A DNA stretch of 64,000 bases from Pythium myriotylum (lineage: Eukaryota; Oomycota; Peronosporomycetes; Pythiales; Pythiaceae): NCBI GenBank assembly GCA_023091665.1, contig JALJCQ010000009.1:1240001-1304000 (forward strand). Direction: 5' to 3'. The notes below the pieces were generated by a model. The model was not told the DNA's origin, searched no databases, and saw only the letters and a program-made list of their open reading frames with translations. Made by a program: the position numbers and the translations under genes. Below, in pieces: positions 16,901-43,970 of the stretch (position 1 is the stretch's first letter; each line of letters opens with the position of its first letter).

Positions 16901-17099
16901 TTCATTTTGATTGCAAACCTTAAAATATTATTTTGTCCCGCCTAGAAACGGAATATATCAGTTTCATTTTGGTTGCAAGCCTTTTCATTTTGACCGGGCA
17001 AAGGTGTATAACTGCTTCTGGCTCATTTGTGACAGCAGCTCGTACTTTTCTGGCGTAGGCCCGACACGATGGCTGTGCAAAGACCTCGTGCAAGCACAG

Positions 17100-17603
17100 C
17101 GGGTGGTTAGGAAACTGTGCTGTCATAATCGTTGCGTCTTGAACGAGCACATCCCTTGGAGTAAGAAGCAGTGTCGCAAAGCCTTGGCAAGCAATATCGT
17201 TGACAAGGTGGCTCTTCTTTCAAACCGCTGCTTGCGGAAAAACCGCTTGCACAAGCGATTCTGGTGCGGGTACGATTGCTCTTTTCAAGAAAAAGCTTCC
17301 CCCTGCAGGGTTGAAACCTGCAAGTGCTCCTGTAGAGTGTACGTCCCGTTATCATTTCTCAACCGCACGCATCAACTTCATGCACTCCGTGTGGGCGATG
17401 CATCTGTAGACGAATTTACCATGCTTTCCTCCGTGGTTACGGAAAAAGGAGTAGGATCCACCAGCAGTCAATTCCATCGCGCCAAGTGCGTCGGCTTTCG
17501 TGCTGTGCGTGGGCACATGGTCGTAGCGACGTGCGGAGAACTCCACCTTGCTCTCGCATCAACGACAGGGACAAGTTCGTCTATAGTCATCACTGAGAAC
17601 TGA
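17100..17603 (-). pseudogene. Mutator-like transposase N-terminal fragment (tentative)
   Basis: On the minus strand 17352-17546 reads GGSYSFFRNHGGKHGKFVYR followed by CIAHTECMKLMRAVEK, and continues in another frame to NRTRTRIACASGF and RSRRNDYDSTVS near 17107-17260. The FFRNH..KFVYRC..H..C..LMR pattern resembles the zinc-binding entry domain of oomycete Mutator-like transposases as I remember them. Frames are broken and no catalytic part is present. Confidence 0.4.
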
Positions 17604-18284
17604 GAAGTGCGACCAAGAGGAGAATCGCCCTGACCAACTTGCAACTTGGTGACCAAGCTGCAGTCGTGCCCTGTCTGCCAATATAAATGTATTATCAAAT
17701 TGTTGTTTACATAAAAAAATTGTTTTTAACAAAAAATCCACGAGTCAAGTAGGACTTAAACACTGTTTTTCGGAGTTGGACCTCCCAGTGCGAAATCCGG
17801 AAATGCGCAAAGAAATCCGGAGGTGGCACTAAACGATAGCAGACAGCAAGGCGATCAAGAATATCCAACTTACACTTCCACCCGATGCATGGTTGTCGAG
17901 AGAATGAATTGTGTGCACCGTCACCAGGTGGCATGTGAAGAGCACTTCCATCTCGTGACTAGGGCTAGGTCCATCTCGTTGACAGCTGTTCCACCTCACA
18001 TGAACTGCAACTTCTCATGTATTATCGATTCTTACCGGTACTGGAATAGTCCACTGCGAGACTGCTGCAACTGCGGCAAGTCGGTCGACGGCCAAAAACC
18101 ACTCGAGGCACTCCACGTCGCTCAAGCACCTTGGGCACGAGCAACTGGGTCACGGCCACACACCAGAGGACGATGAAGACGACGATGAAGAGGACGACGC
18201 GAATGACGATGCGGACGACGGCTGCGGCTGCGGTGCTGACTGCGGCCACGACGAGGACGGACCGCATCTGCTCCACATGAGGCC
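17604..18284. other. No recognised gene; acidic low-complexity end
   Basis: At 17737-17755 there is one more copy (inverted, single arm) of the ATCCACGAGTCAAGTAG core seen in the palindromes. From 18150 an Asp/Glu-rich reading (EDDEDDDEEDDANDDADDG) runs into the CENP-B-like fragment. It is probably the true upstream part of that gene, which copy 2 lacks. Confidence 0.4.
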
Positions 18285-18331
18285 CGGCGAACCACTCGCC
18301 GTCGTCGGACGCGTCGTCCTCGCACGGCGGT

Positions 18332-18794
18332 ATGCGCACCAGCGGCAGCAGCAAGAGCAAGCGCGTGGTGCTGTCAATCCACGAGAAGCAGCAGGTGCTC
18401 CAGCGGCTGGACATGGGCGAGCAGCCGGTGGTCGCGCGACTTTGGCACCAGCCGGCAGGAGGTCTCGAACATCAAGAAGAACCGCGCGCGGATCCTCGTG
18501 TTCCGCCTCGACGCCACACACCTCTCGAGCCTGCGCCGCAAGACGCTCAAGGCCACGACCGAGTACCACTGGAGCGTGGAGCAGGAGCTCAACCGCTGGC
18601 CCATCCACCAGCGCAGGCTCGGCCGCGGCGTCTCGCCCGACGCGCGCGTGCACAAGGCGACCGACGTGTTCATGCAGGACGCGGCCGACGACCTGACTCA
18701 ATTCACGCTCAGTCACTGCAAGTTCGGAGCTTTTGTGCTAAAGTTCCGCAATCTGATCGGCATCAAGCTGTACGCTCGTGAGATGGGGAGCTGA
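18332..18794 (+). pseudogene. CENP-B/psq-type (pogo-like) transposase fragment, copy 1
   Basis: The N-terminal helix-turn-helix reads SKSKRVVLSIHEKQQVLQRL, DMGEQPVVAR. It then continues after a one-base frame change near 18437 as DFGTSRQEVSNIKKNRARIL, matching the psq-like DNA-binding domain of CENP-B and pogo/Tigger transposases. The second helix region follows at 18510-18690 (TTEYHWSVEQELNRW, DARVHKATDVFMQDAADDL). A DDE catalytic part is absent. The same frameshift is present in copy 2, so it predates the duplication. Confidence 0.65.
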
Positions 18795-18913
18795 AGCGGC
18801 GATTACTGATTTCCATCACTCTCGGATGTGGTATCTGCTTGTTGTTCGAGCAACTTTACTGAGCGCAACACTGCCTCTGGGCTCATTGACCACGACTTTC
18901 CCCATCTGCTCGG

Positions 18914-18951
18914 AACTCGTGGAGATTCGTCGCGACGAATCTCCACGAGTT
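18914..18951. repeat. 38-bp perfect palindrome, copy 1
   Basis: Two 19-bp arms with no loop, centred on GTCGCGAC. The arm begins AACTCGTGGAG, sharing ACTCGTGGA with the foldbacks at 9002-9087 and 25432-25474. It lies about 900 bp downstream of the 1,210-codon transposase gene. Confidence 0.95.
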
Positions 18952-19135
18952 TCCTAGTGATCGTGAGGCACGGTGGCCACCAGCTATTGCGCTGGTGCTG
19001 AAATACTGTGGACTCACTGAGTACCCACCGAAGTTAGCTCTTTTGGGACTGCAGGGGCTGTCGCTCACCGGGAATGAGATATTATAATAGTGATGCTTCC
19101 AGCAAAGGCAATCGAGACGCCGGACTGTAATCCAT

Positions 19136-19432
19136 ATGGCTGTGCGAGGAAATCCGATCCCCCAACTAATACCAGAAGACGTTGACATCTCCGAAGTGAC
19201 AATATGGTTGTTTTATCTTGACTCGTCTAACATTGCAATTCTGCCTCCGTGGATGACCGACGAAGCGTTTTGGGAGCGAGAAGGAGCCGTGACTGCCGGA
19301 AGAACTCCACTGTGTGAAGCCATTCTCAAAGCCAACCAGAGCGAGAGAGATTCTCAGCCGTGGATATCCCGGATCGACTCCACGAAGATCGAAGAGCTTG
19401 GGCTTATCCTCTTTCTGTGGACGAGAGAATAA
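19136..19432 (+). CDS. Hypothetical 98-residue protein, copy 1
   Basis: An ATG-started frame (MAVRGNPIPQLIPEDVDISE to LILFLWTRE) of ordinary amino acid composition. No domain is recognised. It sits between the palindrome and the large transposase gene, and may be an extra reading frame of the same mobile element or a chance frame. It is fully kept in copy 2. Confidence 0.25.
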   Translation: MAVRGNPIPQLIPEDVDISEVTIWLFYLDSSNIAILPPWMTDEAFWEREGAVTAGRTPLCEAILKANQSERDSQPWISRIDSTKIEELGLILFLWTRE

Positions 19433-19820
19433 ATGAGGTCCAGTAATGGTCAAATACACCCAGGAAGCCACGAAGTTGAGAGCACTCATTCTCGGCTTCT
19501 AGCACGCGCCTCGACGCACTCCTATTGCGAAGTAAATTGAAGGCACATGACGTTGACGTGTGTGTATCAGCTCTGTTTGCAGTAGCAGTTAGATATCGAG
19601 ACCTCTGGTGTTCATGATTGGGCGAGATTCCTTTCCCCTGCTCTACGCACTTTGAAACAAGTCAGGAGAGTTTGAATGTACACTTCTGGTCGTTCCGAAG
19701 ACCAGTGGGCTTACCCGCTTCGTGTTTCTCATGTTTGCCGCCGTGAACGAACTTGTGTTGTGCTCATAGATAATGAAGCGCAAACGCAGCTGACGGACCG
19801 TTCCTTCGTCAGCTGACCAT

Positions 19821-22800
19821 CTACATTCGCTTCCGTTTGGACCTGAGGTTGTTGATCTCCCTGCTCAACTGAATATCATCAAGATCACACTGGAATCCCT
19901 TTCTGACTTCAGTTGGACAATCTTCAGTTGAAATAGTTGCATTCTCCGTGAGGACCTGCTCGATGAATTTAGTCAAAGGCTGTGTACGCCGCCCACGCTT
20001 CCGTGCCGGGTTTCCCGCGGTAGTGGAGACTTCAGTGCTGTTCGTCGGATTCACCTCCTGTTGCCCCTCGGTAACGCCGTCCAGCGAGTCGATGGGTACA
20101 CTATGATGAGGCTGAGGCGGGGGGCGTGCGGGCCGCCGCTTAAGCTTGGCAATCTCTTGTCGAATCTCGTTTTCGCCGGGTAAGTCGTAGCGACCAGGGT
20201 GCGCACAGCAGATAAGCTCCAACATGCGACCGGGTCCTATCCTCTTTGACGGATTCTCTTCACCCAATCGGAACATCACCTCGATCTCACTGTGGAAGTT
20301 GCCGACATATCTTTCGCCGTATGACATACCCCATGCTGGTCGCTCTGCCCAACCTCTCGAAAAGAGCAAATAATCAGGTCCATCACCGTCACGTGTGGAA
20401 TCGACGTCGGTGTCTCCAACAGTGGTTGCTTCATGGCCTGCTCTGTCACGGATGCTGCAGTCGTTCTCATTGTTTAGGTCATTGCCGTTAGGAGAAACTA
20501 TCGTCTGCGGATCTCGAAGAACGACATCACCAACACGCTGCATCTTCAGTGCCGTTCGAATTGCGTGTGCAATGGCGTCCCGGTTAGCGACATCATCTTC
20601 AGTCAAAGCTTCTTTTTCTAACACATTCCTCGCAGGCCTCGTTCGCCGTCGAAGTTGTCCTTGCGTTGCAATTCCAACTCCCGTCACGCGACCTACTCGA
20701 ACAGCAAGCTCAATCGCCTCCTCTCCTTCGCATTCCTCGCCTTCTGATTCATCATCACTTGGTGGTGGCGCATGGACCACCGAAAGTTCGGTCTCGTCCT
20801 CGTCATCCGCGTCAGCATGACCGGCTTCACGGGACGGTTGGCTGCTTCGTTTTAGTTGAATCTTGCTCGACGACACTGGTTGGGAAACTAAAACACACGA
20901 GCCCTTAGATGGGTTGCAGAGGAATTGGAACCCCTTCCCAATCCCAGAGTACTCAAAAAATGTAACCGTGAATGTTGGACAGCTTGCATATCCATCCGCG
21001 GGGTTCGGCACTGCGCTCGTGTTGTGTCTCTTCAGTTTGATGTGATTGGCACGTTTCACATGCTTTCGAATCGTGGTCTCAAAGTTCTCCACGACCTTCA
21101 CTAGTCGGTCCAACGTCTCTCGGTCATGCTCGATGAGCTCCACAACTGTGTTTGGCAGACCGCCGTGGCTTTTGAGTGCAATAACAGCCTCAGTAGGTGT
21201 CACACAATTGTGCTTTTCCTTAACCCACGAGCGAATCACCCCCATTGATCTCGCGAAGTGCGCATCGATGATACCCTTGCCATCTTGTGTTTCAGTGTGC
21301 AGAAACTCGTCGATCTCAACTCCGTGGATCCATGAGAGAAAGGGAAGGATCAGTGGGATGAATATGTTCTGGTAGCTGGTAGCGTTGTCGGACTGCAGCA
21401 CCATTCTCTTCAGACTGGGTTGATCGATCTTGACGCGCACCAGAAGAGCCTCAAGAATCGACACAACCGCCTCTTTATCCTGCTTGTTATCCCCCTTGCT
21501 GATGTGGTCGTAGTACAGCTTTCGAGGTTCTATCACTGGAGGTGCTTCAGTCGCATCTGCCACTGAGGTATGAAAGTACTGGACGACGGTCCCATGCCAA
21601 CTAATACCGCGCTTGCCGTAGTGATCCACGGTCTTTTCACGATGATACATGGGTTCAAGCTTCATCTTGAAGTCAATCAGAGCCAACGCTTCTAGAGTGC
21701 TAACTTGCTCAACTTGACGGTCGCGTATCTTCTCTATGGTTGATTGGATTGCGAGTTGTTGATTGACAACCCGCACTCTGTGGCCGAGGTAGAGGCGCGC
21801 CTTGTGAGCACAATCGTCGATGACCTTGAAGACGGACGGGTGAGGATCCACAGACTGCAATTTGGTTTTCAGAACGGAGTACAGGCGGAATACCTCACGA
21901 CAGTCGTCGCAGATTACGTTCGTTGGCGGAGGGCAACTGCTGGTGCAACCCACCGTCGCTCTGTGTGTGCATGTGTTTGTACGATCGCCGAGCCCATAGC
22001 GAACGTGATGAAGAATGCATCCTCTTTCATTCTCTCGAAGCTGAGAGTCGAATCCGTACTTGAGGTACACCTCAACGAGATGGAGATGACTCAAAAGCTC
22101 TCCTTGCTCCTCACCGGGTGGGATCAAATCCCTGATTATCCGTTCAAGTAAGACAGTTGAATCATTGACCAAAAAGCCAACAACATAATCGACAGCGTTC
22201 CGTTGCTGTGCTTCGCCGTTGGTCAAGGTGGATACGATATTGAAAAACGTGGATCTCTTGATTGTCGGAGCATTCGGGTTTTCAGCCATGTGGGCCACGT
22301 ACGCTTGATAGATGTGTGTTCTTGTCTGTCGACGCATTATGGACGGAAAAACGAAAGCTTGGTCACCCACACGCAAGCGCTTCGTTCCCCACGAGAAAAA
22401 TGACACGTATGTCGATGATATCATGAACGCTACTGCGTCTTCCACTGCCATCGGATCGAAACGTCGCACGCTTCGTTTTGTTTTCATGAGTAGATTGCCT
22501 CTCTGCAGCTCCTCTAAGTCCTCTCGCCCCTTGACGAAAGTTCGTTTAGCAACGTTCACACCTTCGAGGTTCTGAAGCTCAGTAAGTGAGAGTACAGAGA
22601 GACACGCGCGTAGCGCACGCCTTTCGATCGATCCCTTCTGCGTTTTGGAGTAACAGGCGATCAAATTGGCTAAAACCTTGAGTGCAAGAGCTTCTCTTCC
22701 TTGGTGGACAACCTGCCGCCCAATGAGATCCCACAACGCCTTCCCCGAGGGCTCATCACCGCCGCAAAACAAGAAACAAACCTGATCAATCGCTTCCTTA

Positions 22801-23453
22801 GTCACTTTCACAGCCGCCTTCACAGCACTGTTGTCATAATCTTTCCACGTGGTTTGGGTCGAGCGCATTTCTGCCGATGGTGCGTGATTTTTGAAGTACT
22901 GCACGAGCATGGGTAGGTCGAGGGCATGGAGAACGTCGGCTACGCGCGGAAATCGGAACAATTGCGTTGATAAACGACTGGGGACCTGTACTGCTTGATG
23001 TTGGCCTGATGAACGGGTCTGAGGATGTTGTTCCACGTGCGCCGATCTGCCGGGGGCTTGGGGAGTCATCGGTGACTCAAAAAATGCCCCAGGTTGGTAA
23101 ACATTTGCGAGGCGTTTGGGTAACTTCTCTGGCATTACCCGGATAGCTCCGTCCTGTCCTACGCGCCTTGACAGGTTGACTTCGACCGATATTCCGTCAT
23201 GGTCGCATCCACAGTAACTGCACAGCTCGCAGATAGCACAACGCCGTCTCTTGTGCCCACAGGTCAATGGTGGTCTCTGCCCTCCCGTCTGGCTCATGAT
23301 TCGATGGATTGGTGGTCTTACTGGACTGGAAATGCGTCGCTCAGGGGTCTCAAGGAGTACACGCGGGGAACTTCGACTTTCCTCATCGGCTGATCTAGCC
23401 TCATCTTCACTCAGGCCATGAGCATCTGACCGTGATGTTGCATATTCGTTCAT
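19821..23453 (-). CDS. Large DDD/E transposase of an unnamed eukaryotic family, copy 1
   Basis: An intact, intronless 1,210-residue frame from ATG 23453. Two Cys/His clusters could bind zinc: residues 65-85 (TCGHKRRRCAICELCSYCGC) and 495-518. A likely RNase H-fold core follows: IDFKMKLEPMYHREKT with D594, YGKRGISWHG at 612-621, LQSDNATSYQN with D689, and ETQDGKGIIDAHFARS with D730. The order D...GKRG.PWH...SDNA..Y...GKG..D, followed by a V(T)..EA...HGG stretch, is one I remember from uncharacterised long proteins scattered in fish, cnidarians and other eukaryotes; I cannot assign a named superfamily. An acidic linker (880-915) and a C-terminal FHSEIEVMF...P..ML domain follow, with a basic tail RSKRKRM. 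An intact frame in two near-identical copies suggests recent activity. Confidence 0.8.
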   Translation of the reverse strand: MNEYATSRSDAHGLSEDEARSADEESRSSPRVLLETPERRISSPVRPPIHRIMSQTGGQRPPLTCGHKRRRCAICELCSYCGCDHDGISVEVNLSRRVGQDGAIRVMPEKLPKRLANVYQPGAFFESPMTPQAPGRSAHVEQHPQTRSSGQHQAVQVPSRLSTQLFRFPRVADVLHALDLPMLVQYFKNHAPSAEMRSTQTTWKDYDNSAVKAAVKVTKEAIDQVCFLFCGGDEPSGKALWDLIGRQVVHQGREALALKVLANLIACYSKTQKGSIERRALRACLSVLSLTELQNLEGVNVAKRTFVKGREDLEELQRGNLLMKTKRSVRRFDPMAVEDAVAFMISSTYVSFFSWGTKRLRVGDQAFVFPSIMRRQTRTHIYQAYVAHMAENPNAPTIKRSTFFNIVSTLTNGEAQQRNAVDYVVGFLVNDSTVLLERIIRDLIPPGEEQGELLSHLHLVEVYLKYGFDSQLRENERGCILHHVRYGLGDRTNTCTHRATVGCTSSCPPPTNVICDDCREVFRLYSVLKTKLQSVDPHPSVFKVIDDCAHKARLYLGHRVRVVNQQLAIQSTIEKIRDRQVEQVSTLEALALIDFKMKLEPMYHREKTVDHYGKRGISWHGTVVQYFHTSVADATEAPPVIEPRKLYYDHISKGDNKQDKEAVVSILEALLVRVKIDQPSLKRMVLQSDNATSYQNIFIPLILPFLSWIHGVEIDEFLHTETQDGKGIIDAHFARSMGVIRSWVKEKHNCVTPTEAVIALKSHGGLPNTVVELIEHDRETLDRLVKVVENFETTIRKHVKRANHIKLKRHNTSAVPNPADGYASCPTFTVTFFEYSGIGKGFQFLCNPSKGSCVLVSQPVSSSKIQLKRSSQPSREAGHADADDEDETELSVVHAPPPSDDESEGEECEGEEAIELAVRVGRVTGVGIATQGQLRRRTRPARNVLEKEALTEDDVANRDAIAHAIRTALKMQRVGDVVLRDPQTIVSPNGNDLNNENDCSIRDRAGHEATTVGDTDVDSTRDGDGPDYLLFSRGWAERPAWGMSYGERYVGNFHSEIEVMFRLGEENPSKRIGPGRMLELICCAHPGRYDLPGENEIRQEIAKLKRRPARPPPQPHHSVPIDSLDGVTEGQQEVNPTNSTEVSTTAGNPARKRGRRTQPLTKFIEQVLTENATISTEDCPTEVRKGFQCDLDDIQLSREINNLRSKRKRM

Positions 23454-23970
23454 ATTGACAGTTTCAAGTGTCAGTCACACCAAGAGCCACTTTAACTTGC
23501 CACCCTATTGGCTTGATCAAGGGCCCTGTCCTCCAGTAGCGTGCGCGGTTGATGGCGAGCTTGCGGCTACCTGCGTTGGCGTTTGGTACTGCTCTTGCAG
23601 TAGCTTAGGCTGGTGGTGGACTCGCTTGTGGTGGCAGTCGTGCTCAGTCTCGTGTTGAGGCGGCTCGCGCTGGAAGTCGTGCTTGCTTGCGCTGGTGGTC
23701 GTGCTCGGTCTCGTGCTTGGTGCTGGTGGTGGGCTCGCTTGCTTTGGGAGTTGGTATTCTGGGTGACCTGACCGTTTGTCTGTGCGTTCAGTTGTACCGA
23801 CATATGGGCACAGTGTGTTGGTACCAACGACCACTGTTCTGTTGAGACGGATTCGTTTTGGACGAGGTGGCGCCACACCGACGGCTACATCTCCATGCAA
23901 ATCGGATCACGCATGGCACAGCTCTATACGGAACGTCGAGCACAGGAAGAATAAAACTCAAATACGGACT
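23454..23970. other. Spacer between transposase and companion gene
   Basis: GT-rich low-complexity sequence with repeats of GGTGGTCGTGCTC/GGTGCTGGTGG type at 23,590-23,740 and the shared promoter side of the large gene. A minus frame at 23517-23900 is Thr/Pro/His-rich and is not convincing as a gene. One SNP to copy 2 lies here (23684). Confidence 0.4.
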
Positions 23971-25014
23971 TTATTGGTTTAGCTTTCGCTTGAGTCCCAC
24001 GAGGAGCGAATTCAATACAATCGCGTTCGCATCGACTGCTTCGATCAGATCATTCACAGACTCTTCGAGATCTTTAGCTGGCTGGCATGCGGGGTTGGCT
24101 TCGGTGGCGATCATCTGCCGAAGTTGAACGTCGAGTATCTTGTAGTCGGAGTGGTTGCAGAATTTGTGGTCAAATCGCATGCTGTCTTTCACGCAGCACG
24201 GACAAAACTTCGTACAGGCGCACGCGATGTTGGCTTCGAGCGAACGTGAGTGGAGTTGTTGCTTGCGCCAGCAGTCGGACGTTCGATATGCCTTCTGTAG
24301 CACCGGGAGCGACTTGATTATGGGGGTTGCACGCGGACAAAACTCGTTCCACTGGTGGCACAGCACGCTCTTTTTCGCCTTGAAGAGCTTCTTCGACGAC
24401 GGATCCTTGAAAAGCCGCCACTGTAGAAAGTATTGTATAAAGCAGTGAGAGGTCAGTCCTGCAGCTGGTACCTGCGCAGCAAGAAGTGCGTGTGTATCAT
24501 ACAATGGCACCGCACAACCCTTCTCCCTGTGACCTTCGTCATGTTGAAGGTATACTCGCTCCCACGGCTGCACACTCAGCTTCCGTTCGCGGGCAACTTG
24601 CGTTGGCGTTAACCACGGAAAAGGATCTTCGGTTAGACGAAGCCCGGACTCCGCACACTCTCCCTGGAGAGAGCTCCGTCCGTCTGGACGGTGCGGGCCC
24701 ACATCGGCGCTCGAGATGGCCGATGGCGGCGCCGATGATGCTGGAGTCGATGGGGACGGTGCACGCTCGGTGGACGTTGCTGGAAGAGGCGGTTCTGAAC
24801 CTTCTTGGATGGCCAAGAGCGCTGATAAATCTAGCGTGTCGCTTAGTCCATCGCAATAGGAGATGATTGACTCGTCCGCTGAGAAAGGCGATGACGGAAG
24901 AGATGGACACTCGGGCAATTCGAACGGCGAACTTCGTTGCGAGGTCAGGGAGCCTTGGTCGTCGCAGGACGCGCCCGAATCTTCGGTCGCCGACACAACG
25001 CTGTCAGATTCCAT
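23971..25014 (-). CDS. Companion gene of the large transposase, Cys-cluster protein, copy 1
   Basis: A 347-residue frame from ATG 25014 (MESDSVVSATEDSG); the frame stays open a further 39 codons upstream but without ATG. The first 130 residues are Ser/Pro-rich and acidic, with no fold seen. The C-terminal half is more ordered (PWERVYLQHDEGHREKG, HCFIQYFLQWRLFKD) and holds a dense Cys motif, CACTKFCPCC near residues 265-274, with H and C further on, suggesting a zinc-binding module. It runs in the same direction as the transposase, 517 bp upstream, and is duplicated with it. A second element-encoded protein is the simplest reading; it could also be a 5' exon of the same transcription unit. Function unknown. 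Confidence 0.5.
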   Translation of the reverse strand: MESDSVVSATEDSGASCDDQGSLTSQRSSPFELPECPSLPSSPFSADESIISYCDGLSDTLDLSALLAIQEGSEPPLPATSTERAPSPSTPASSAPPSAISSADVGPHRPDGRSSLQGECAESGLRLTEDPFPWLTPTQVARERKLSVQPWERVYLQHDEGHREKGCAVPLYDTHALLAAQVPAAGLTSHCFIQYFLQWRLFKDPSSKKLFKAKKSVLCHQWNEFCPRATPIIKSLPVLQKAYRTSDCWRKQQLHSRSLEANIACACTKFCPCCVKDSMRFDHKFCNHSDYKILDVQLRQMIATEANPACQPAKDLEESVNDLIEAVDANAIVLNSLLVGLKRKLNQ

Positions 25015-25431
25015 GTCCGGACACGGGGCCGAGAGTGGAAAGGAATTCCTCCCTCTTTGGCGTGCGCCGAACGCCACACGATGTGGGAGCCTTTTACTGG
25101 AGGGGAAGACTGGCTTTAAACCTAAATACACGACGTGAGGTTTTACTGAGCAAGGTACCGGTAATGGGTCAGTTCCTGACGTATGTTTTTTGTACGAGTT
25201 GAGATGACCTGACGTGCATCTTCAGAACGAGATTCAAAATGGGATTTGGGGATTCCAAAATGATGAATTAGATGGCGCACGGGCTCTATTAGGCTCGTGC
25301 GCGACACCAAAGAGAGTATGAGCTTCGTTGAAAGCGGGAACTTTGTTTTCAAACGATTGCTCACCACATTCTGCCTCAACTTTAGCCAACGTGTTTGTAC
25401 CGGATTTCGTTGTGTTTTGGCCATCTCCCAT

Positions 25432-25474
25432 GTTTGGGCTACTTGACTCGTGGATCGCTTGTTAAAGCCCAAAC
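25432..25474. repeat. Hairpin carrying the CTACTTGACTCGTGGATCG core, copy 1
   Basis: GTTTGGGCT and AGCCCAAAC enclose a 25-nt loop that contains ACTTGACTCGTGGATCGC. The loop sequence is one arm of the palindrome at 9002-9087. It lies 420 bp upstream of the companion gene start, so with the 18914 palindrome it brackets both genes of the large element. Confidence 0.85.
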
Positions 25475-25640
25475 TGTTTTATTCATTCGATAGTCATCTT
25501 CAGTTTTGTTCACGAGGAGATTTGTCATCCGCTTTGGAAAATCTTCTCGATAGTCATCTATCCGGAGTGACTACTCGACAGTCATCCGTCACCTACTCGA
25601 TATCCATCCGCACCCTTCTGCTTCATCGCAGTGAGAAGCG
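25475..25640. repeat. Degenerate CTCGATAGTCATC repeats before the Merlin gene, copy 1
   Basis: Four spaced copies, near 25482, 25544, 25573 and 25597, of a TCGATAGTCATC-like word. They are possibly subterminal transposase-binding repeats of the Merlin element. Copy 2 has the same series at 43971-44136. Confidence 0.5.
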
Positions 25641-25784
25641 CGCGAACACTTCACTTATTTTTTGTATACTTAGCAAAAACACACCCACTGAACCGGCCCT
25701 CCCCACACAGAAACAAGCCTTCTTTGTGCGCGGACTGTGGGCTCGTTCTTCAAGTCACCAAGCCCAGCCCAAGTCCGCGCACCC

Positions 25785-26186
25785 ATGGCCGCAGCCGCCA
25801 CTGCCACGGCAGCGGCAGCGGTGCAAGAGGCACCGCCGTTCCAGTACCACCTGGACACCACGCACTTCTCCCACGACGCCGTCATGGAAGCGACGACGTC
25901 GGAGGAGAAGAGTGTGGAATGGTGCATGGCGATCGGTCTCGTCGACACGAAGAAGTTCTGTCCTGAGTGCGCCCAGCCGATGAGGCTCACGTTGGCGACC
26001 AAGCGTTGGCGCTGTGCTCGGCGCACACGACACGTCTCAGGGAAAGAGACGATGATCGCCCTTCACATCGGCTCCTTCCGTGCCGAGATTCCAATAAAAA
26101 GTGCAGTGCGCCTGATGCTGGCGTGGTGCATGCGGACACCGCAGGCCCAAGCGATGGAAATGACGGGCCTTTCCGCACCACTGTGA
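25785..26186 (+). pseudogene. Merlin (ISXO2-like) transposase, 5' part, copy 1
   Basis: From ATG 25785: an Ala-rich lead, then EEKSVEWCMAIGLVDTKKFC, PECAQPMRLTLATKRWRCAR and HIGSFRAEIPIKSAVRLMLA, ending EMTGLSAPL. The paired CxxC plus short beta region before a helical domain is the zinc-ribbon entry of IS1016/ISXO2 and eukaryotic Merlin transposases. It stops at what looks like an intron donor (GTGAGT at 26183). The matching 3' part resumes at 31828 (TVSHWYACIRSVC type), about 5.6 kb further on, so the gene was split by later insertions. Confidence 0.75.
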
Positions 26187-26875
26187 GTAGTGCATACGTT
26201 AACCCGAAATGTTGAGCTTAACTATACTAACTTGAACATTGCAGTTGAAGCTAGTAGCGTTCGTAACTGCCTTCGTATTTTACCGGTCTTGTGCAACTTA
26301 ATCAAATTTTCACACGCAAACTTCAAACAAAATCTGGAAGTGAAGATGGACGCGGGAACTTCATCGAAGATCACGCAGCCGACCCCGTAGACACCATCAC
26401 ACTACGTGCATCACGTTCCACGTGACGACCTTCGGCTGCCTCGAGGACTTGCGACGAGGGCGAGTGTGTTCCTCACAGGACAGTCTTGGTGCGTGACGTG
26501 GATCCGCCTTACGAAACTCGAATGAGCTGCTGGATATTGCGGCGCACGTCGGTGGGCGAGCGAGTTGCTTCATTCTCCAATCTGAGCAGTTCGATGCAAG
26601 CCTTCCAAGTCCAGCGTCTCCGTGGACCCCTGTCATCACTCTCAACTTCCCAGTTGCTTGAAGCAACGCCGTTGCCACAGGCATTGGAGTCGTCGGAATC
26701 ATTCGAATCATCCGACTTGTATGAGTCCTCCGAGTCGTCACAGTCATCGCTGTCTTCGTCACAGTGGTCGCTTGCGATGCTCCAGCAGACGCCATCGCCT
26801 GCCTTGTCCTCATCTCAATCGCCGTCGCTATCGACGTCGGAGCCCTCTCATATCAGCGGTGTCCCATTGATCATT

Positions 26876-28694
26876 ATGGTTCGCAACGCGGTATGTGATT
26901 TTACCCTCCCGTTGGTTGCTCATACTAATGTTTGATGCAGGAGGAAACAGCTGACCGTGCTGCCAACTCTCGACGTCAATTGGCTGTAGCGAATGCAGCA
27001 GCTCCGGCATCGATCGACGGACTCTACGACATCAAGCGCAAGCGCAAAGCTGAGCATTGTACGTGCATCCAGCTCAGGGCTAAGGACGAGTTTCGTCATC
27101 TCTCTTCGGAATCGCTCACATCGGAGCATGCTGCGAGTGCTTACTGCACCAAGTGTCAGATTGACATTAAATTTGCCAAGGGTCAGACCTCAGCAGTAAG
27201 CAGCCATATGCACACGTGCCATCTTGATGATCTCATCGATCATCGTGCGCGCAAGATGCAGAGGACCCAGGCCCCACTGGAGAACATGTACGCCACCAAG
27301 CCAACTCAGATTGAGACCACCAACGGTCATGCAGTGACCTCGGAGGAGCAAGCGTTTGCCGATCAACTCCCCGCAGGCTGGCTTTCTGAGAGCCACCGAC
27401 CCTGTAACTTGGTTCATGACAGTGGATTCAAGCGCTACGTGAAATTCATCCAAGCCATCTTCAACGGCGAGGGACTGCGTATTCCGTCCCGCACGAAGGT
27501 GGCGGATGATGCAGCAAGTGTGTCATCCCAGCTACGAGCGTCTCTAATGCATTGCTTGCGCCGTGACTGCGACTTCTACCACGCTACCATGGACATTTGG
27601 AGTGACCGTGCTGCTCGAAGCTACATCGGTTTGACTATTCACTATCTCGAGGAAGCGTTCACACTCAACAAGTGGCTATTAGACGTCTTGCCCATCCCTG
27701 GTAAGCACATGGGATCCGCAATGGCCCAAGCAATCGGAGTCCTCGATGGTTGGGCTCTCCAGAGAGAATCTTGCGGTGGACTCGTGTGCGATGGCGCATC
27801 GAATGGGGTGGCCGCAGCAAATCAACTTGGCATGCTCAGTTTCTCGTGTGTTGCCCACTCACTACACCTCGTCGTGGGTGGGGCATTAATCAAGAAGAAG
27901 GAAAGGCGCAACACTTCCCCTCCAGCTCCAGCTATCGCAGTGTGCCCGACGGAGGATCGGGGAGAGGAGTTCGATGATGAGAACGCCCCGCCTCTCGATC
28001 CGCAGACTCATCGAATTACATCAAGAGTGTCCTGGATAATGACCGGATCTTTGCTGACGACGTCACCACTCCGGTCGTGGAGGCCTTGCAGCAGGTTAGG
28101 CTTGCTGTGGGTGATTTGTTTCGTGCTCGCTTCTCTGAGATGGACTCGGTGATGTTATGGGTTTCCATACTTGATCTTCGTCTCAGTGACTTGGAGCATC
28201 TCGAACCAGAGGAGCGAATGCGTGCCCGACGCCTCGCTCTCCGAGCCGTCATTGAAGAAGCAACTCTTCTGGACGCCCGTGGAACACTCAACAACCTTCC
28301 AGCATCAGCATCCAATGCATCTACGCCTGAGAAGGCGAAGGAACGACTGGACAAGGCTATATCCGGACGTCGTGCCCAGCGCAGCGCCTCGGTAACTCGC
28401 CCACACACAACGCCACTGTATCAGCGATGCGAAACTGCTCTTAGCGACTATCTTCGCGGTGCCCAAGTCGCTGACTTCGACGTCAACCCACTGGTGTGGT
28501 GGCGAGCCAACGCGAAGTCTCACCCTATTGTCGCCCGTGTTTCCCGTAAGTGGTTATCTCGTATTGCGACTTCTGTCCCATCCGAGCGAGCGTTCTCGAC
28601 TGGGGGCAACATTGTCACTGCTAAGCGCTGCGACATGAGTCCTGATGCCGTTCGAGACAGCATCTTCATCGCGCAAAACTGCAAGTTCCAGTGA
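26876..28694 (+). pseudogene. hAT transposase, internally deleted and frameshifted, copy 1
   Basis: Exon 1 (26876-26890, MVRNA) is joined through a 50-nt GT-AG intron with a CTAAT branch-like spot to EETADRAANSRRQLAVANAA. Further on are a BED-like finger (AYCTKCQIDIKFAKGQTSAV, SSHMHTCH), DFYHATMDIWSDRAARSYIG, GGLVCDGASNGVAA and CVAHSLHLVVGG, the standard hAT catalytic order. Soon after, the frame shifts near 28010, and the usual RWNS helical stretch is missing. The C-terminal dimerisation region at 28077-28694 is well kept (NPLVWWRANAKSHPIVARVS, IATSVPSERAFSTGGNIVTA). The element is dead as a source but keeps both ends of its protein. Confidence 0.85.
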
Positions 28695-29069
28695 CACATT
28701 ATTGTACACCGCGTTGGTCATGAGACCAAGATTCAGTGGCTCCCATCTGCCCTATTTCTGAAATATCCTATGGTGACAGTTAGATACGAGGGGTAATTTT
28801 GCACGCTGAACCCGTTTTTGTGATCCATTTTGCGTGAAACGCAGCCGTTTTCGAGCTGTCTGGCTTCGTGCGCGAGTCTCCCTGTCAATTTTCCTTCGTG
28901 GATAGGGTTGATCGATTCAGCTTTTTTGATTGGACAGTTTGAGCAATCCATCTGACGCGCATGGGACAGGCGCAGCCACTTTCTCGAGGTTGTGGTTGTG
29001 AACGAAATTTCAATGTAACGGATCAATTATGATATGCAACAGAGTTATAAAAACATAGGGGTAGTCATT
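28695..29069. other. No recognised gene (between hAT and Tc1-like relics), copy 1
   Basis: AT-balanced sequence with no gene. It probably contains the terminal sequence of the hAT element, but no inverted repeat could be paired by eye. Copy 2 equivalent: 47191-47565. Confidence 0.4.

Positions 29070-31307: not shown

Positions 31308-31312
<5 letters not shown>
30103..31312. other. No recognised gene, copy 1
   Basis: The + strand has a frame at 30526-30774 (NFGQAVQNIWECEGIYYISQ) and others of 80-100 codons. None shows a family signature, and they are broken by stops. The minus strand near 31080-31300 reads NAKSAIHGEKFPPVLMLLLD with two internal stops, perhaps another transposon piece. Copy 2 equivalent: 48599-49808. 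Confidence 0.35.

Positions 31313-31399
<87 letters not shown>
31313..31399. repeat. (GA)n microsatellite, copy 1
   Basis: About 43 GA units in a row. Copy 2 has 30 bp less (49809-49865). It is the first length difference between the two duplicate blocks. Confidence 0.95.
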
Positions 31400-31402
<3 letters not shown>

Positions 31403-32790: not shown

Positions 32791-32819
32791 TTTTTCGAGC
32801 TCGATCGCTGGTGAACGCG

Positions 32820-36780: not shown

Positions 36781-36827
36781 CGGCGAACCACTCGCCGTCG
36801 TCGGACGCGTCGTCCTCGCACGGCGGT

Positions 36828-37290
36828 ATGCGCACCAGCGGCAGCAGCAAGAGCAAGCGCGTGGTGCTGTCAATCCACGAGAAGCAGCAGGTGCTCCAGC
36901 GGCTGGACATGGGCGAGCAGCCGGTGGTCGCGCGACTTTGGCACCAGCCGGCAGGAGGTCTCGAACATCAAGAAGAACCGCGCGCGGATCCTCGTGTTCC
37001 GCCTCGACGCCACACACCTCTCGAGCCTGCGCCGCAAGACGCTCAAGGCCACGACCGAGTACCACTGGAGCGTGGAGCAGGAGCTCAACCGCTGGCCCAT
37101 CCACCAGCGCAGGCTCGGCCGCGGCGTCTCGCCCGACGCGCGCGTGCACAAGGCGACCGACGTGTTCATGCAGGACGCGGCCGACGACCTGACTCAATTC
37201 ACGCTCAGTCACTGCAAGTTCGGAGCTTTTGTGCTAAAGTTCCGCAATCTGATCGGCATCAAGCTGTACGCTCGTGAGATGGGGAGCTGA
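36828..37290 (+). pseudogene. CENP-B/psq-type transposase fragment, copy 2
   Basis: Identical to 18332-18794, including the one-base frameshift after GEQPVVAR. Here the acidic upstream part is missing because the duplication boundary lies 47 bp before the ATG. Confidence 0.65.
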
Positions 37291-37409
37291 AGCGGCGATT
37301 ACTGATTTCCATCACTCTCGGATGTGGTATCTGCTTGTTGTTCGAGCAACTTTACTGAGCGCAACACTGCCTCTGGGCTCATTGACCACGACTTTCCCCA
37401 TCTGCTCGG

Positions 37410-37447
37410 AACTCGTGGAGATTCGTCGCGACGAATCTCCACGAGTT
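37410..37447. repeat. 38-bp perfect palindrome, copy 2
   Basis: Identical to 18914-18951, unmutated in both arms. Confidence 0.95.
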
Positions 37448-37631
37448 TCCTAGTGATCGTGAGGCACGGTGGCCACCAGCTATTGCGCTGGTGCTGAAAT
37501 ACTGTGGACTCACTGAGTACCCACCGAAGTTAGCTCTTTTGGGACTGCAGGGGCTGTCGCTCACCGGGAATGAGATATTATAATAGTGATGCTTCCAGCA
37601 AAGGCAATCGAGACGCCGGACTGTAATCCAT

Positions 37632-37928
37632 ATGGCTGTGCGAGGAAATCCGATCCCCCAACTAATACCAGAAGACGTTGACATCTCCGAAGTGACAATA
37701 TGGTTGTTTTATCTTGACTCGTCTAACATTGCAATTCTGCCTCCGTGGATGACCGACGAAGCGTTTTGGGAGCGAGAAGGAGCCGTGACTGCCGGAAGAA
37801 CTCCACTGTGTGAAGCCATTCTCAAAGCCAACCAGAGCGAGAGAGATTCTCAGCCGTGGATATCCCGGATCGACTCCACGAAGATCGAAGAGCTTGGGCT
37901 TATCCTCTTTCTGTGGACGAGAGAATAA
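37632..37928 (+). CDS. Hypothetical 98-residue protein, copy 2
   Basis: Identical to the frame at 19136-19432. No family recognised. Confidence 0.25.
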   Translation: MAVRGNPIPQLIPEDVDISEVTIWLFYLDSSNIAILPPWMTDEAFWEREGAVTAGRTPLCEAILKANQSERDSQPWISRIDSTKIEELGLILFLWTRE

Positions 37929-38316
37929 ATGAGGTCCAGTAATGGTCAAATACACCCAGGAAGCCACGAAGTTGAGAGCACTCATTCTCGGCTTCTAGCA
38001 CGCGCCTCGACGCACTCCTATTGCGAAGTAAATTGAAGGCACATGACGTTGACGTGTGTGTATCAGCTCTGTTTGCAGTAGCAGTTAGATATCGAGACCT
38101 CTGGTGTTCATGATTGGGCGAGATTCCTTTCCCCTGCTCTACGCACTTTGAAACAAGTCAGGAGAGTTTGAATGTACACTTCTGGTCGTTCCGAAGACCA
38201 GTGGGCTTACCCGCTTCGTGTTTCTCATGTTTGCCGCCGTGAACGAACTTGTGTTGTGCTCATAGATAATGAAGCGCAAACGCAGCTGACGGACCGTTCC
38301 TTCGTCAGCTGACCAT

Positions 38317-41300
38317 CTACATTCGCTTCCGTTTGGACCTGAGGTTGTTGATCTCCCTGCTCAACTGAATATCATCAAGATCACACTGGAATCCCTTTCT
38401 GACTTCAGTTGGACAATCTTCAGTTGAAATAGTTGCATTCTCCGTGAGGACCTGCTCGATGAATTTAGTCAAAGGCTGTGTACGCCGCCCACGCTTCCGT
38501 GCCGGGTTTCCCGCGGTAGTGGAGACTTCAGTGCTGTTCGTCGGATTCACCTCCTGTTGCCCCTCGGTAACGCCGTCCAGCGAGTCGATGGGTACACTAT
38601 GATGAGGCTGAGGCGGGGGGCGTGCGGGCCGCCGCTTAAGCTTGGCAATCTCTTGTCGAATCTCGTTTTCGCCGGGTAAGTCGTAGCGACCAGGGTGCGC
38701 ACAGCAGATAAGCTCCAACATGCGACCGGGTCCTATCCTCTTTGACGGATTCTCTTCACCCAATCGGAACATCACCTCGATCTCACTGTGGAAGTTGCCG
38801 ACATATCTTTCGCCGTATGACATACCCCATGCTGGTCGCTCTGCCCAACCTCTCGAAAAGAGCAAATAATCAGGTCCATCACCGTCACGTGTGGAATCGA
38901 CGTCGGTGTCTCCAACAGTGGTTGCTTCATGGCCTGCTCTGTCACGGATGCTGCAGTCGTTCTCATTGTTTAGGTCATTGCCGTTAGGAGAAACTATCGT
39001 CTGCGGATCTCGAAGAACGACATCACCAACACGCTGCATCTTCAGTGCCGTTCGAATTGCGTGTGCAATGGCGTCCCGGTTAGCGACATCATCTTCAGTC
39101 AAAGCTTCTTTTTCTAACACATTCCTCGCAGGCCTCGTTCGCCGTCGAAGTTGTCCTTGCGTTGCAATTCCAACTCCCGTCACGCGACCTACTCGAACAG
39201 CAAGCTCAATCGCCTCCTCTCCTTCGCATTCCTCGCCTTCTGATTCATCATCACTTGGTGGTGGCGCATGGACCACCGAAAGTTCGGTCTCGTCCTCGTC
39301 ATCCGCGTCAGCATGACCGGCTTCACGGGACGGTTGGCTGCTTCGTTTTAGTTGAATCTTGCTCGACGACACTGGTTGGGAAACTAAAACACACGAGCCC
39401 TTAGATGGGTTGCAGAGGAATTGGAACCCCTTCCCAATCCCAGAGTACTCAAAAAATGTAACCGTGAATGTTGGACAGCTTGCATATCCATCCGCGGGGT
39501 TCGGCACTGCGCTCGTGTTGTGTCTCTTCAGTTTGATGTGATTGGCACGTTTCACATGCTTTCGAATCGTGGTCTCAAAGTTCTCCACGACCTTCACTAG
39601 TCGGTCCAACGTCTCTCGGTCATGCTCGATGAGCTCCACAACTGTGTTTGGCAGACCGCCGTGGCTTTTGAGTGCAATAACAGCCTCAGTAGGTGTCACA
39701 CAATTGTGCTTTTCCTTAACCCACGAGCGAATCACCCCCATTGATCTCGCGAAGTGCGCATCGATGATACCCTTGCCATCTTGTGTTTCAGTGTGCAGAA
39801 ACTCGTCGATCTCAACTCCGTGGATCCATGAGAGAAAGGGAAGGATCAGTGGGATGAATATGTTCTGGTAGCTGGTAGCGTTGTCGGACTGCAGCACCAT
39901 TCTCTTCAGACTGGGTTGATCGATCTTGACGCGCACCAGAAGAGCCTCAAGAATCGACACAACCGCCTCTTTATCCTGCTTGTTATCCCCCTTGCTGATG
40001 TGGTCGTAGTACAGCTTTCGAGGTTCTATCACTGGAGGTGCTTCAGTCGCATCTGCCACTGAGGTATGAAAGTACTGGACGACGGTCCCATGCCAACTAA
40101 TACCGCGCTTGCCGTAGTGATCCACGGTCTTTTCACGATGATACATGGGTTCAAGCTTCATCTTGAAGTCAATCAGAGCCAACGCTTCTAGAGTGCTAAC
40201 TTGCTCAACTTGACGGTCGCGTATCTTCTCTATGGTTGATTGGATTGCGAGTTGTTGATTGACAACCCGCACTCTGTGGCCGAGGTAGAGGCGCGCCTTG
40301 TGAGCACAATCGTCGATGACCTTGAAGACGGACGGGTGAGGATCCACAGACTGCAATTTGGTTTTCAGAACGGAGTACAGGCGGAATACCTCACGACAGT
40401 CGTCGCAGATTACGTTCGTTGGCGGAGGGCAACTGCTGGTGCAACCCACCGTCGCTCTGTGTGTGCATGTGTTTGTACGATCGCCGAGCCCATAGCGAAC
40501 GTGATGAAGAATGCATCCTCTTTCATTCTCTCGAAGCTGAGAGTCGAATCCGTACTTGAGGTACACCTCAACGAGATGGAGATGACTCAAAAGCTCTCCT
40601 TGCTCCTCACCGGGTGGGATCAAATCCCTGATTATCCGTTCAAGTAAGACAGTTGAATCATTGACCAAAAAGCCAACAACATAATCGACAGCGTTCCGTT
40701 GCTGTGCTTCGCCGTTGGTCAAGGTGGATACGATATTGAAAAACGTGGATCTCTTGATTGTCGGAGCATTCGGGTTTTCAGCCATGTGGGCCACGTACGC
40801 TTGATAGATGTGTGTTCTTGTCTGTCGACGCATTATGGACGGAAAAACGAAAGCTTGGTCACCCACACGCAAGCGCTTCGTTCCCCACGAGAAAAATGAC
40901 ACGTATGTCGATGATATCATGAACGCTACTGCGTCTTCCACTGCCATCGGATCGAAACGTCGCACGCTTCGTTTTGTTTTCATGAGTAGATTGCCTCTCT
41001 GCAGCTCCTCTAAGTCCTCTCGCCCCTTGACGAAAGTTCGTTTAGCAACGTTCACACCTTCGAGGTTCTGAAGCTCAGTAAGTGAGAGTACAGAGAGACA
41101 CGCGCGTAGCGCACGCCTTTCGATCGATCCCTTCTGCGTTTTGGAGTAACAGGCGATCAAATTGGCTAAAACCTTGAGTGCAAGAGCTTCTCTTCCTTGG
41201 TGGACAACCTGCCGCCCAATGAGATCCCACAACGCCTTCCCCGAGGGCTCATCACCGCCGCAAAACAAGAAACAAACCTGATCAATCGCTTCCTTAGTCA

Positions 41301-41949
41301 CTTTCACAGCCGCCTTCACAGCACTGTTGTCATAATCTTTCCACGTGGTTTGGGTCGAGCGCATTTCTGCCGATGGTGCGTGATTTTTGAAGTACTGCAC
41401 GAGCATGGGTAGGTCGAGGGCATGGAGAACGTCGGCTACGCGCGGAAATCGGAACAATTGCGTTGATAAACGACTGGGGACCTGTACTGCTTGATGTTGG
41501 CCTGATGAACGGGTCTGAGGATGTTGTTCCACGTGCGCCGATCTGCCGGGGGCTTGGGGAGTCATCGGTGACTCAAAAAATGCCCCAGGTTGGTAAACAT
41601 TTGCGAGGCGTTTGGGTAACTTCTCTGGCATTACCCGGATAGCTCCGTCCTGTCCTACGCGCCTTGACAGGTTGACTTCGACCGATATTCCGTCATGGTC
41701 GCATCCACAGTAACTGCACAGCTCGCAGATAGCACAACGCCGTCTCTTGTGCCCACAGGTCAATGGTGGTCTCTGCCCTCCCGTCTGGCTCATGATTCGA
41801 TGGATTGGTGGTCTTACTGGACTGGAAATGCGTCGCTCAGGGGTCTCAAGGAGTACACGCGGGGAACTTCGACTTTCCTCATCGGCTGATCTAGCCTCAT
41901 CTTCACTCAGGCCATGAGCATCTGACCGTGATGTTGCATATTCGTTCAT
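38317..41949 (-). CDS. Large DDD/E transposase of an unnamed family, copy 2
   Basis: 1,210 codons, same protein as 19821-23453 with no residue difference noticed. The D594, D689 and D730 candidates, the GKRG motif and both Cys clusters are all kept. Two uninterrupted copies of a frame this long mean that neither has yet suffered loss-of-function change since the duplication. Confidence 0.8.
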   Translation of the reverse strand: MNEYATSRSDAHGLSEDEARSADEESRSSPRVLLETPERRISSPVRPPIHRIMSQTGGQRPPLTCGHKRRRCAICELCSYCGCDHDGISVEVNLSRRVGQDGAIRVMPEKLPKRLANVYQPGAFFESPMTPQAPGRSAHVEQHPQTRSSGQHQAVQVPSRLSTQLFRFPRVADVLHALDLPMLVQYFKNHAPSAEMRSTQTTWKDYDNSAVKAAVKVTKEAIDQVCFLFCGGDEPSGKALWDLIGRQVVHQGREALALKVLANLIACYSKTQKGSIERRALRACLSVLSLTELQNLEGVNVAKRTFVKGREDLEELQRGNLLMKTKRSVRRFDPMAVEDAVAFMISSTYVSFFSWGTKRLRVGDQAFVFPSIMRRQTRTHIYQAYVAHMAENPNAPTIKRSTFFNIVSTLTNGEAQQRNAVDYVVGFLVNDSTVLLERIIRDLIPPGEEQGELLSHLHLVEVYLKYGFDSQLRENERGCILHHVRYGLGDRTNTCTHRATVGCTSSCPPPTNVICDDCREVFRLYSVLKTKLQSVDPHPSVFKVIDDCAHKARLYLGHRVRVVNQQLAIQSTIEKIRDRQVEQVSTLEALALIDFKMKLEPMYHREKTVDHYGKRGISWHGTVVQYFHTSVADATEAPPVIEPRKLYYDHISKGDNKQDKEAVVSILEALLVRVKIDQPSLKRMVLQSDNATSYQNIFIPLILPFLSWIHGVEIDEFLHTETQDGKGIIDAHFARSMGVIRSWVKEKHNCVTPTEAVIALKSHGGLPNTVVELIEHDRETLDRLVKVVENFETTIRKHVKRANHIKLKRHNTSAVPNPADGYASCPTFTVTFFEYSGIGKGFQFLCNPSKGSCVLVSQPVSSSKIQLKRSSQPSREAGHADADDEDETELSVVHAPPPSDDESEGEECEGEEAIELAVRVGRVTGVGIATQGQLRRRTRPARNVLEKEALTEDDVANRDAIAHAIRTALKMQRVGDVVLRDPQTIVSPNGNDLNNENDCSIRDRAGHEATTVGDTDVDSTRDGDGPDYLLFSRGWAERPAWGMSYGERYVGNFHSEIEVMFRLGEENPSKRIGPGRMLELICCAHPGRYDLPGENEIRQEIAKLKRRPARPPPQPHHSVPIDSLDGVTEGQQEVNPTNSTEVSTTAGNPARKRGRRTQPLTKFIEQVLTENATISTEDCPTEVRKGFQCDLDDIQLSREINNLRSKRKRM

Positions 41950-42466
41950 ATTGACAGTTTCAAGTGTCAGTCACACCAAGAGCCACTTTAACTTGCCACC
42001 CTATTGGCTTGATCAAGGGCCCTGTCCTCCAGTAGCGTGCGCGGTTGATGGCGAGCTTGCGGCTACCTGCGTTGGCGTTTGGTACTGCTCTTGCAGTAGC
42101 TTAGGCTGGTGGTGGACTCGCTTGTGGTGGCAGTCGTGCTCAGTCTCGTGTTGAGGCGGCTCGCGCTGGAAGTCGTGCTCGCTTGCGCTGGTGGTCGTGC
42201 TCGGTCTCGTGCTTGGTGCTGGTGGTGGGCTCGCTTGCTTTGGGAGTTGGTATTCTGGGTGACCTGACCGTTTGTCTGTGCGTTCAGTTGTACCGACATA
42301 TGGGCACAGTGTGTTGGTACCAACGACCACTGTTCTGTTGAGACGGATTCGTTTTGGACGAGGTGGCGCCACACCGACGGCTACATCTCCATGCAAATCG
42401 GATCACGCATGGCACAGCTCTATACGGAACGTCGAGCACAGGAAGAATAAAACTCAAATACGGACT

Positions 42467-43510
42467 TTATTGGTTTAGCTTTCGCTTGAGTCCCACGAGG
42501 AGCGAATTCAATACAATCGCGTTCGCATCGACTGCTTCGATCAGATCATTCACAGACTCTTCGAGATCTTTAGCTGGCTGGCATGCGGGGTTGGCTTCGG
42601 TGGCGATCATCTGCCGAAGTTGAACGTCGAGTATCTTGTAGTCGGAGTGGTTGCAGAATTTGTGGTCAAATCGCATGCTGTCTTTCACGCAGCACGGACA
42701 AAACTTCGTACAGGCGCACGCGATGTTGGCTTCGAGCGAACGTGAGTGGAGTTGTTGCTTGCGCCAGCAGTCGGACGTTCGATATGCCTTCTGTAGCACC
42801 GGGAGCGACTTGATTATGGGGGTTGCACGCGGACAAAACTCGTTCCACTGGTGGCACAGCACGCTCTTTTTCGCCTTGAAGAGCTTCTTCGACGACGGAT
42901 CCTTGAAAAGCCGCCACTGTAGAAAGTATTGTATAAAGCAGTGAGAGGTCAGTCCTGCAGCTGGTACCTGCGCAGCAAGAAGTGCGTGTGTATCATACAA
43001 TGGCACCGCACAACCCTTCTCCCTGTGACCTTCGTCATGTTGAAGGTATACTCGCTCCCACGGCTGCACACTCAGCTTCCGTTCGCGGGCAACTTGCGTT
43101 GGCGTTAACCACGGAAAAGGATCTTCGGTTAGACGAAGCCCGGACTCCGCACACTCTCCCTGGAGAGAGCTCCGTCCGTCTGGACGGTGCGGGCCCACAT
43201 CGGCGCTCGAGATGGCCGATGGCGGCGCCGATGATGCTGGAGTCGATGGGGACGGTGCACGCTCGGTGGACGTTGCTGGAAGAGGCGGTTCTGAACCTTC
43301 TTGGATGGCCAAGAGCGCTGATAAATCTAGCGTGTCGCTTAGTCCATCGCAATAGGAGATGATTGACTCGTCCGCTGAGAAAGGCGATGACGGAAGAGAT
43401 GGACACTCGGGCAATTCGAACGGCGAACTTCGTTGCGAGGTCAGGGAGCCTTGGTCGTCGCAGGACGCGCCCGAATCTTCGGTCGCCGACACAACGCTGT
43501 CAGATTCCAT
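42467..43510 (-). CDS. Companion Cys-cluster protein, copy 2
   Basis: 347 codons from ATG 43510, same protein as 23971-25014. The CACTKFCPCC cluster is intact and the distance to the transposase gene is unchanged (517 bp). Function unknown. Confidence 0.5.
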   Translation of the reverse strand: MESDSVVSATEDSGASCDDQGSLTSQRSSPFELPECPSLPSSPFSADESIISYCDGLSDTLDLSALLAIQEGSEPPLPATSTERAPSPSTPASSAPPSAISSADVGPHRPDGRSSLQGECAESGLRLTEDPFPWLTPTQVARERKLSVQPWERVYLQHDEGHREKGCAVPLYDTHALLAAQVPAAGLTSHCFIQYFLQWRLFKDPSSKKLFKAKKSVLCHQWNEFCPRATPIIKSLPVLQKAYRTSDCWRKQQLHSRSLEANIACACTKFCPCCVKDSMRFDHKFCNHSDYKILDVQLRQMIATEANPACQPAKDLEESVNDLIEAVDANAIVLNSLLVGLKRKLNQ

Positions 43511-43927
43511 GTCCGGACACGGGGCCGAGAGTGGAAAGGAATTCCTCCCTCTTTGGCGTGCGCCGAACGCCACACGATGTGGGAGCCTTTTACTGGAGGG
43601 GAAGACTGGCTTTAAACCTAAATACACGACGTGAGGTTTTACTGAGCAAGGTACCGGTAATGGGTCAGTTCCTGACGTATGTTTTTTGTACGAGTTGAGA
43701 TGACCTGACGTGCATCTTCAGAACGAGATTCAAAATGGGATTTGGGGATTCCAAAATGATGAATTAGATGGCGCACGGGCTCTATTAGGCTCGTGCGCGA
43801 CACCAAAGAGAGTATGAGCTTCGTTGAAAGCGGGAACTTTGTTTTCAAACGATTGCTCACCACATTCTGCCTCAACTTTAGCCAACGTGTTTGTACCGGA
43901 TTTCGTTGTGTTTTGGCCATCTCCCAT

Positions 43928-43970
43928 GTTTGGGCTACTTGACTCGTGGATCGCTTGTTAAAGCCCAAAC
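43928..43970. repeat. Hairpin with CTACTTGACTCG core, copy 2
   Basis: Identical to 25432-25474. Confidence 0.85.

Follow-up and report, generated by a model that had tools for sequence, protein, structure and literature searches.

What kind of genetic unit holds the two neighboring genes at positions 19821..25014 of a 64,000-nucleotide stretch of the genome of the oomycete Pythium myriotylum (assembly GCA_023091665.1, contig JALJCQ010000009.1, positions 1,240,001 to 1,304,000; this whole stretch is hereinafter the window)? A preliminary description of this DNA interpreted the pair as a potentially active two-gene DNA transposon, with a transposase of the DDD type (three catalytic aspartates) from an unnamed family. 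We conclude with considerable confidence that the two genes belong to a complete 7.7-kb cut-and-paste DNA transposon that encodes a DDD transposase and targets TTAA sites.

The larger gene (19821..23453, minus strand) encodes 1,210 amino acids from an ATG in one unbroken frame, with the motifs IDFKMK at residue 593, GKRGISWHG at 613, QSDNA at 687 and GKGIID at 725, precisely as in the preliminary description. We aligned 76 cores, namely those of the window protein, four frames from the same genome and 71 database proteins, and found Asp in 73 of the 76 rows at D594 (codon 21672..21674, minus strand), in 72 at D689 (21387..21389, minus) and in 74 at D730 (21264..21266, minus); given this conservation of the Asp columns, the frame is not a chance occurrence. 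Structure prediction yielded an RNase H-like core with the topology b-b-b-a-b-a-b-a, where D594 is located on strand b1, D689 follows b4, and D730 is on the last helix, after strand 5. The predicted fold, together with the conserved aspartates, supports the assignment of this protein as a DDD enzyme, in line with the original proposal. D730 is the probable third catalytic acid, although D724, located six residues ahead of it, just before GKG, is Asp in all 76 rows; being conserved at least equally, D724 leaves the choice between the two unsettled by sequence. The model matches integrase cores, and the similarity to the retroviral integrase core (10% identity) indicates a shared fold only, with no evidence of close descent. 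When the model was compared with a viral library by Foldseek, nothing reached E <= 0.001; the top row, a marginal one, was a DNA polymerase entry of Macrobrachium rosenbergii bidensovirus (E 2.7e-3, 120 columns, 19% identity). Near the N-terminus (residues 65-87; 23193..23261, minus strand), the protein contains a Cys-rich cluster, CGHKRRRCAICELCSYCGCDHDG, that presumably binds zinc. Similar clusters are present in the frames of two same-genome loci (L006 and L007) and in the database proteins P0003 and P0010, and absent from the L005 frame; of 47 database proteins, a large share of which are fragments, 2 show the pattern.

The companion gene (23971..25014, minus strand, with the ATG at 25014) encodes a 347-amino acid protein with a CACTKFCPCC cluster and, as previously reported, is located on the same strand as the transposase, with its end 517 bp upstream of the transposase start.

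Do these genes lie between the ends of a mobile element? In DNA searches of the genome from which the window was taken (55 contigs, 58.7 Mb), other copies begin at window position 25466, and the sequence read inward from there recurs inverted at 17725, with 5 mismatches over 31 bases. The ends thus located are two 26-bp terminal inverted repeats (TIRs), the transposase-end TIR CAAAAAATCCACGAGTCAAGTAGGAC (17730..17755, plus strand) and the companion-end TIR CAAGCGATCCACGAGTCAAGTAGCCC (25436..25461, minus strand, reading from 25461 to 25436), which are identical in 21 of the 26 positions; each is preceded by TTAA, and the element termini are CA...TG. Accordingly, the limits of 19821..25014 given at the outset have to be replaced: the element, with both TIRs included, extends over 7,732 bp (17730..25461, minus strand), as delimited by the TIR pair, by the limits of homology with another copy (at C18, discussed below), which end at most 5 bases outside either TIR, and by empty paralogous sites. 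Allowing up to 3 mismatches, we identified 12 companion-type and 5 transposase-type ends in the genome, compared to 0 for the backward control in each case, and 9 of the 12 companion-type ends (with the duplicated window copy counted) are preceded by TTAA. Elsewhere, positions 9002-9087 of the window form an 86-bp palindrome in which two companion-type ends of this transposon family meet head to head at TTAAAA; one of its sides runs on into a short non-autonomous copy.

The TTAA tetranucleotides at 17726..17729 and 25462..25465 are readily interpreted as a target-site duplication. The right flank of the element is part of a dispersed repeat, and nine further genomic places contain that flank. 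When six of these were compared with the two window flanks joined together, five aligned across the junction, with the element absent, and one stopped before it. One of the five aligns by only 15 bases, and two, which are inverted relative to each other and separated by 1.7 kb on C12, might not be independent. The junction is TTAA in one empty site (L025) and differs from it by one or two bases in the other four. These paralogous empty sites, with a single tetranucleotide, indicate that the element inserted into a copy of the repeat, duplicating 4 bp.

The inference of a transposon further predicts dispersed copies, and these were identified. The transposase search of the genome produced at least 54 matches, grouped into at least about 24 loci, a lower bound given that 38 of 65 candidates were scored. 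The closest of these copies outside the window, at C18, is approximately 98.5% identical; a 561-bp deletion removes its residues 537-723, including two catalytic Asp, and its companion gene (97%) is open. This copy contains a nested 13.4-kb long terminal repeat (LTR) element (C18:159817-173223; L031-L033), with 1,187-bp LTRs that are 99.66% alike; window positions 16230-16769 are 97% similar to a stretch of this LTR element. Short copies retain both ends, flanked by TTAA at C3 and C11 and by ATAA at C30; the C11 copy carries approximately 6.1 kb of other sequence without similarity to the transposase or the companion.

The companion gene was found in both window copies (the second is described below) and at C18, and its remnants adjoin a matching TIR at C8:1208751-1209300. 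Because two independent copies (C9, that is, the window, and C18) contain the companion between their ends, and a third (C8) has remnants of it, the companion is, on the sequence, co-mobilized with the transposase. A companion-like fragment of about 40% identity (L015, C8:1358952-1359459) is located approximately 2.5 kb downstream of a degraded transposase (L051), on the same strand; given this arrangement, a second subfamily may carry the companion at its other end. Beyond the window, C18 and C8, we detected no further companion copies in the genome, so that this gene is perhaps confined to this subfamily and a few others. Its database relatives are four metagenome proteins (40-52% identity); Pfam gave nothing under 0.08 in five members, the best NCBIfam match was at 0.056, and the structure model, with a predicted local distance difference test (pLDDT) value of 42.6, is too poor for use. 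The Cys cluster suggests binding of a metal and of DNA or protein.

The ends, the target duplication, the dispersed copies and the enclosure of the two genes by these ends in two independent copies can thus be read directly from the DNA. They bear on the possibility that the two genes are a domesticated host pair rather than a mobile element, as might be imagined from the long open frames in both genes and the second identical copy. TIRs and a target duplication enclose both genes, however, paralogous sites without the element exist, and the genome contains another copy at 98.5% identity as well as remnants, short copies and some 24 loci of the transposase; we therefore regard domestication as extremely improbable. 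Of the findings that the preliminary description would have taken as refuting a transposon, neither turned up in the structure prediction or in this genome: an RNase H-like core is predicted, and the locus is present in several copies.

The second window copy requires separate consideration. The preliminary description held that all neighboring transposases were broken, so that this one stood out. This does not hold: the transposase encoded at 38317-41949 is 100% identical in protein sequence to the first, and a divergent open frame of 1,172 amino acids was found elsewhere in the genome (C17). The second copy (36781..43957, minus strand) also contains the companion (42467-43510) and its TIR (43932-43957), and is truncated, lacking the last 555 bp of the element with the transposase-end TIR; it shows one difference from the first in the 7,181 bp compared. 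It lies within a tandem duplication of 18285-33625 onto 36781-52092 (99.77% identity over 15.3 kb). The entire stretch 18285-64000 consists of this 18.5-kb tandem duplication followed by tandem 380-bp and approximately 1.7-kb repeats up to the window end, an arrangement that represents either a recent duplication or a haplotype artefact. That the second copy is an artefact of assembly, for example, two haplotypes placed in tandem, is suggested by the near identity of the two copies and by the approximately 1.7-kb tandem repeats at the junction. This explanation, which is compatible with a transposon, appears possible but the less probable one, considering the precise junction (18285/36781), the presence of some differences along the 15.3 kb, and the fact that a recent tandem duplication accounts for the data equally well.

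Under the mechanism that we propose for this transposon, the 1,210-amino acid transposase would attach to the two 26-bp ends, for which its Cys-rich N-terminus might serve, pair them and cut them with the DDD active site of the RNase H fold (D594, D689, D730), so that the element would be excised in a cut-and-paste fashion and inserted, with duplication of the target, at TTAA or similar sites of 4 bp. The companion would be an accessory protein carried by the element, with a possible role as a DNA-binding or regulatory helper. That the element is potentially active at present, as originally suggested, is plausible. It displays three hallmarks of DDE/D cut-and-paste transposons: a predicted RNase H fold with three acids, TIRs around the gene and a target duplication, albeit not a clean one at C18.

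Several observations weigh against this interpretation. The transposase matches outside C9 and C18 are 28-52% identical and mostly partial or interrupted. The ratio of nonsynonymous to synonymous changes between the C9 and C18 copies is 0.58 overall (0.51 and 1.24 in two pieces of the transposase, 0.47 in the companion) and, coming from only 49 changes, does not establish purifying selection at this degree of divergence. At three of the 12 companion-type ends, the four bases ahead are AAAA, ATAA and CCAA, one each, and in a comparison within a divergent subfamily (C28/C13), a sharp right edge was seen, with no clear TIR or TTAA. The C18 copy provides no clean duplication, because its two flanking tetranucleotides differ (TTAA and TCAA) and it is enclosed by inverted copies of another repeat. 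The transposase model had no Foldseek match in the PDB at E <= 0.001. Profile searches were equally silent: no Pfam-A match below E 0.01 for the window transposase (one at E 0.29), two single-member Pfam matches for 50 aligned relatives (OAM_alpha, 0.0012; Pox_D5, 0.006), no NCBIfam match for the three transposases tried, and one member at E 0.01 in PHROGs, with no credible family. A search of PDB sequences matched a designed DARPin (0.0045) without a stretch of its own, and a second such search gave nothing under 0.6. Scanning the loci L005-L008 and L049-L051 for TIRs with 10-base seeds revealed nothing convincing. With regard to the C18 flanks, the bracketing repeat is a dispersed one that starts with TGAGACCACGCAAAACAAAACCGGTCTTAACGCC (L060-L067), two inverted copies of whose end enclose the element.

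What are the relatives of this transposase? The first protein search gave 3 matches only, probably because its words came from the first 500 residues, ahead of the core. A profile search with the core, in which the 7,996 candidates sharing the most words were scored, identified at least 90 related proteins. These include proteins of Phytophthora lilii, P. cinnamomi, Peronosclerospora sorghi, Aphanomyces stellatus, Daphnia pulex and D. sinensis, one EukProt protein and many metagenome proteins, the nearest named relatives being those of Phytophthora. In the tree of the 76 aligned cores, the window protein belongs to a supported set of 14 that also includes P. lilii and three further loci from the window's genome. 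None of the 90 relatives contains a Pfam domain; one (P0080) is labeled RemA, an automatic name that nothing here supports, and the rest of those with a name are labeled "hypothetical" or "unnamed". Scans of viral contigs (159 pattern-matched stretches) and prokaryotic genome contigs (42 stretches) yielded no relative confirmed by tblastn.

To which superfamily, then, should the element be assigned? Sola3 elements preferentially target TTAA, the tetranucleotide that precedes most of the companion-type ends here, and the Sola superfamily, including the Sola3 group, was reportedly described by Bao et al. in 2009. To our knowledge, Pfam has no Sola model, so that the silence of Pfam is to be expected. 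Sola elements have been described as encoding a DDD transposase, duplicating 4 bp, mostly 2-9 kb in size, with TIRs of 11-1124 bp (PMC10741241), with AT-rich 4-bp duplications in Sola2 (PMC3627910); among the repeats around RxLR genes, Sola3 was reported as the most abundant, compared to random genes, in another oomycete, Phytophthora sojae (PMC11139960). The present element, with its DDD transposase, AT-rich duplication (TTAA, and ATAA at C30), 7,732-bp length and 26-bp TIRs, fits this description in every element-level trait checked, so that the label of an unnamed family finds no support in the form given. We therefore consider it likely that the element belongs to the Sola3 group, judging by traits of the element compared with Sola by description only.

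Conversely, the lack of any credible family in Pfam, NCBIfam, PHROGs or PDB and the absence of Pfam domains among the 90 relatives could be taken to indicate a TTAA-targeting DDD group outside all named superfamilies. Given that the Pfam silence is expected and that the traits are within the published description of Sola (PMC10741241), with Sola3 known from an oomycete (PMC11139960), this appears rather unlikely. A difference from Sola3 is the second conserved, Cys-rich gene, a trait that Sola3 elements are not known to have. It seems still somewhat less likely that the element represents a two-component TTAA lineage, separate from all named superfamilies or at least from known Sola3, in which the Cys-rich companion would be required along with the DDD transposase for mobility. 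We found no description of this element or its companion in the literature, a weak negative given that subscription papers are mostly outside the coverage.

Two other superfamilies come to mind. The THAP domain is a Kolobok trait, and none is among the Pfam matches; at E <= 0.01, none of the 50 family members searched contained the Pfam piggyBac domain. Both superfamilies duplicate TTAA (PMC9587614, and PMC5199201 for piggyBac), as observed here; Kolobok has a DDD/E transposase (PMC9587614), piggyBac has a DDD triad (PMC3731211), and the tetranucleotides TTAA and ATAA, each of which occurs at ends described above, are typical of piggyBac (PMC8634313). Kolobok termini are RR...YY (PMC9587614), as opposed to CA...TG in this case, and the C/DxxH signature (PMC9587614) is missing in the window protein and present in 1 of 48 proteins checked. 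Assignment to Kolobok or piggyBac is accordingly very unlikely.

Two frames in the 2 kb that separate the transposase stop from the TIR have no Pfam match at E <= 0.01, and a search of 17000-26000 against Rfam at gathering thresholds was negative. Within the element, plus-strand frames of a GC-rich stretch (18281-18791), interrupted in C18 too, resemble by eye a frameshifted pogo-type helix-turn-helix, without profile support. Farther away, the minus strand of 5541-8303 encodes a TPR-repeat protein and a multi-Kazal protease-inhibitor protein.

This analysis delimits a complete, intact-looking element of a group that has no Pfam family and whose 90 relatives have no credible functional name, supplies its exact ends and target site, and links a conserved second gene to the mobile unit. 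Given the presence of Sola3 around RxLR genes of P. sojae, as reported in PMC11139960, the definition of an intact member would help the annotation of oomycete genomes.
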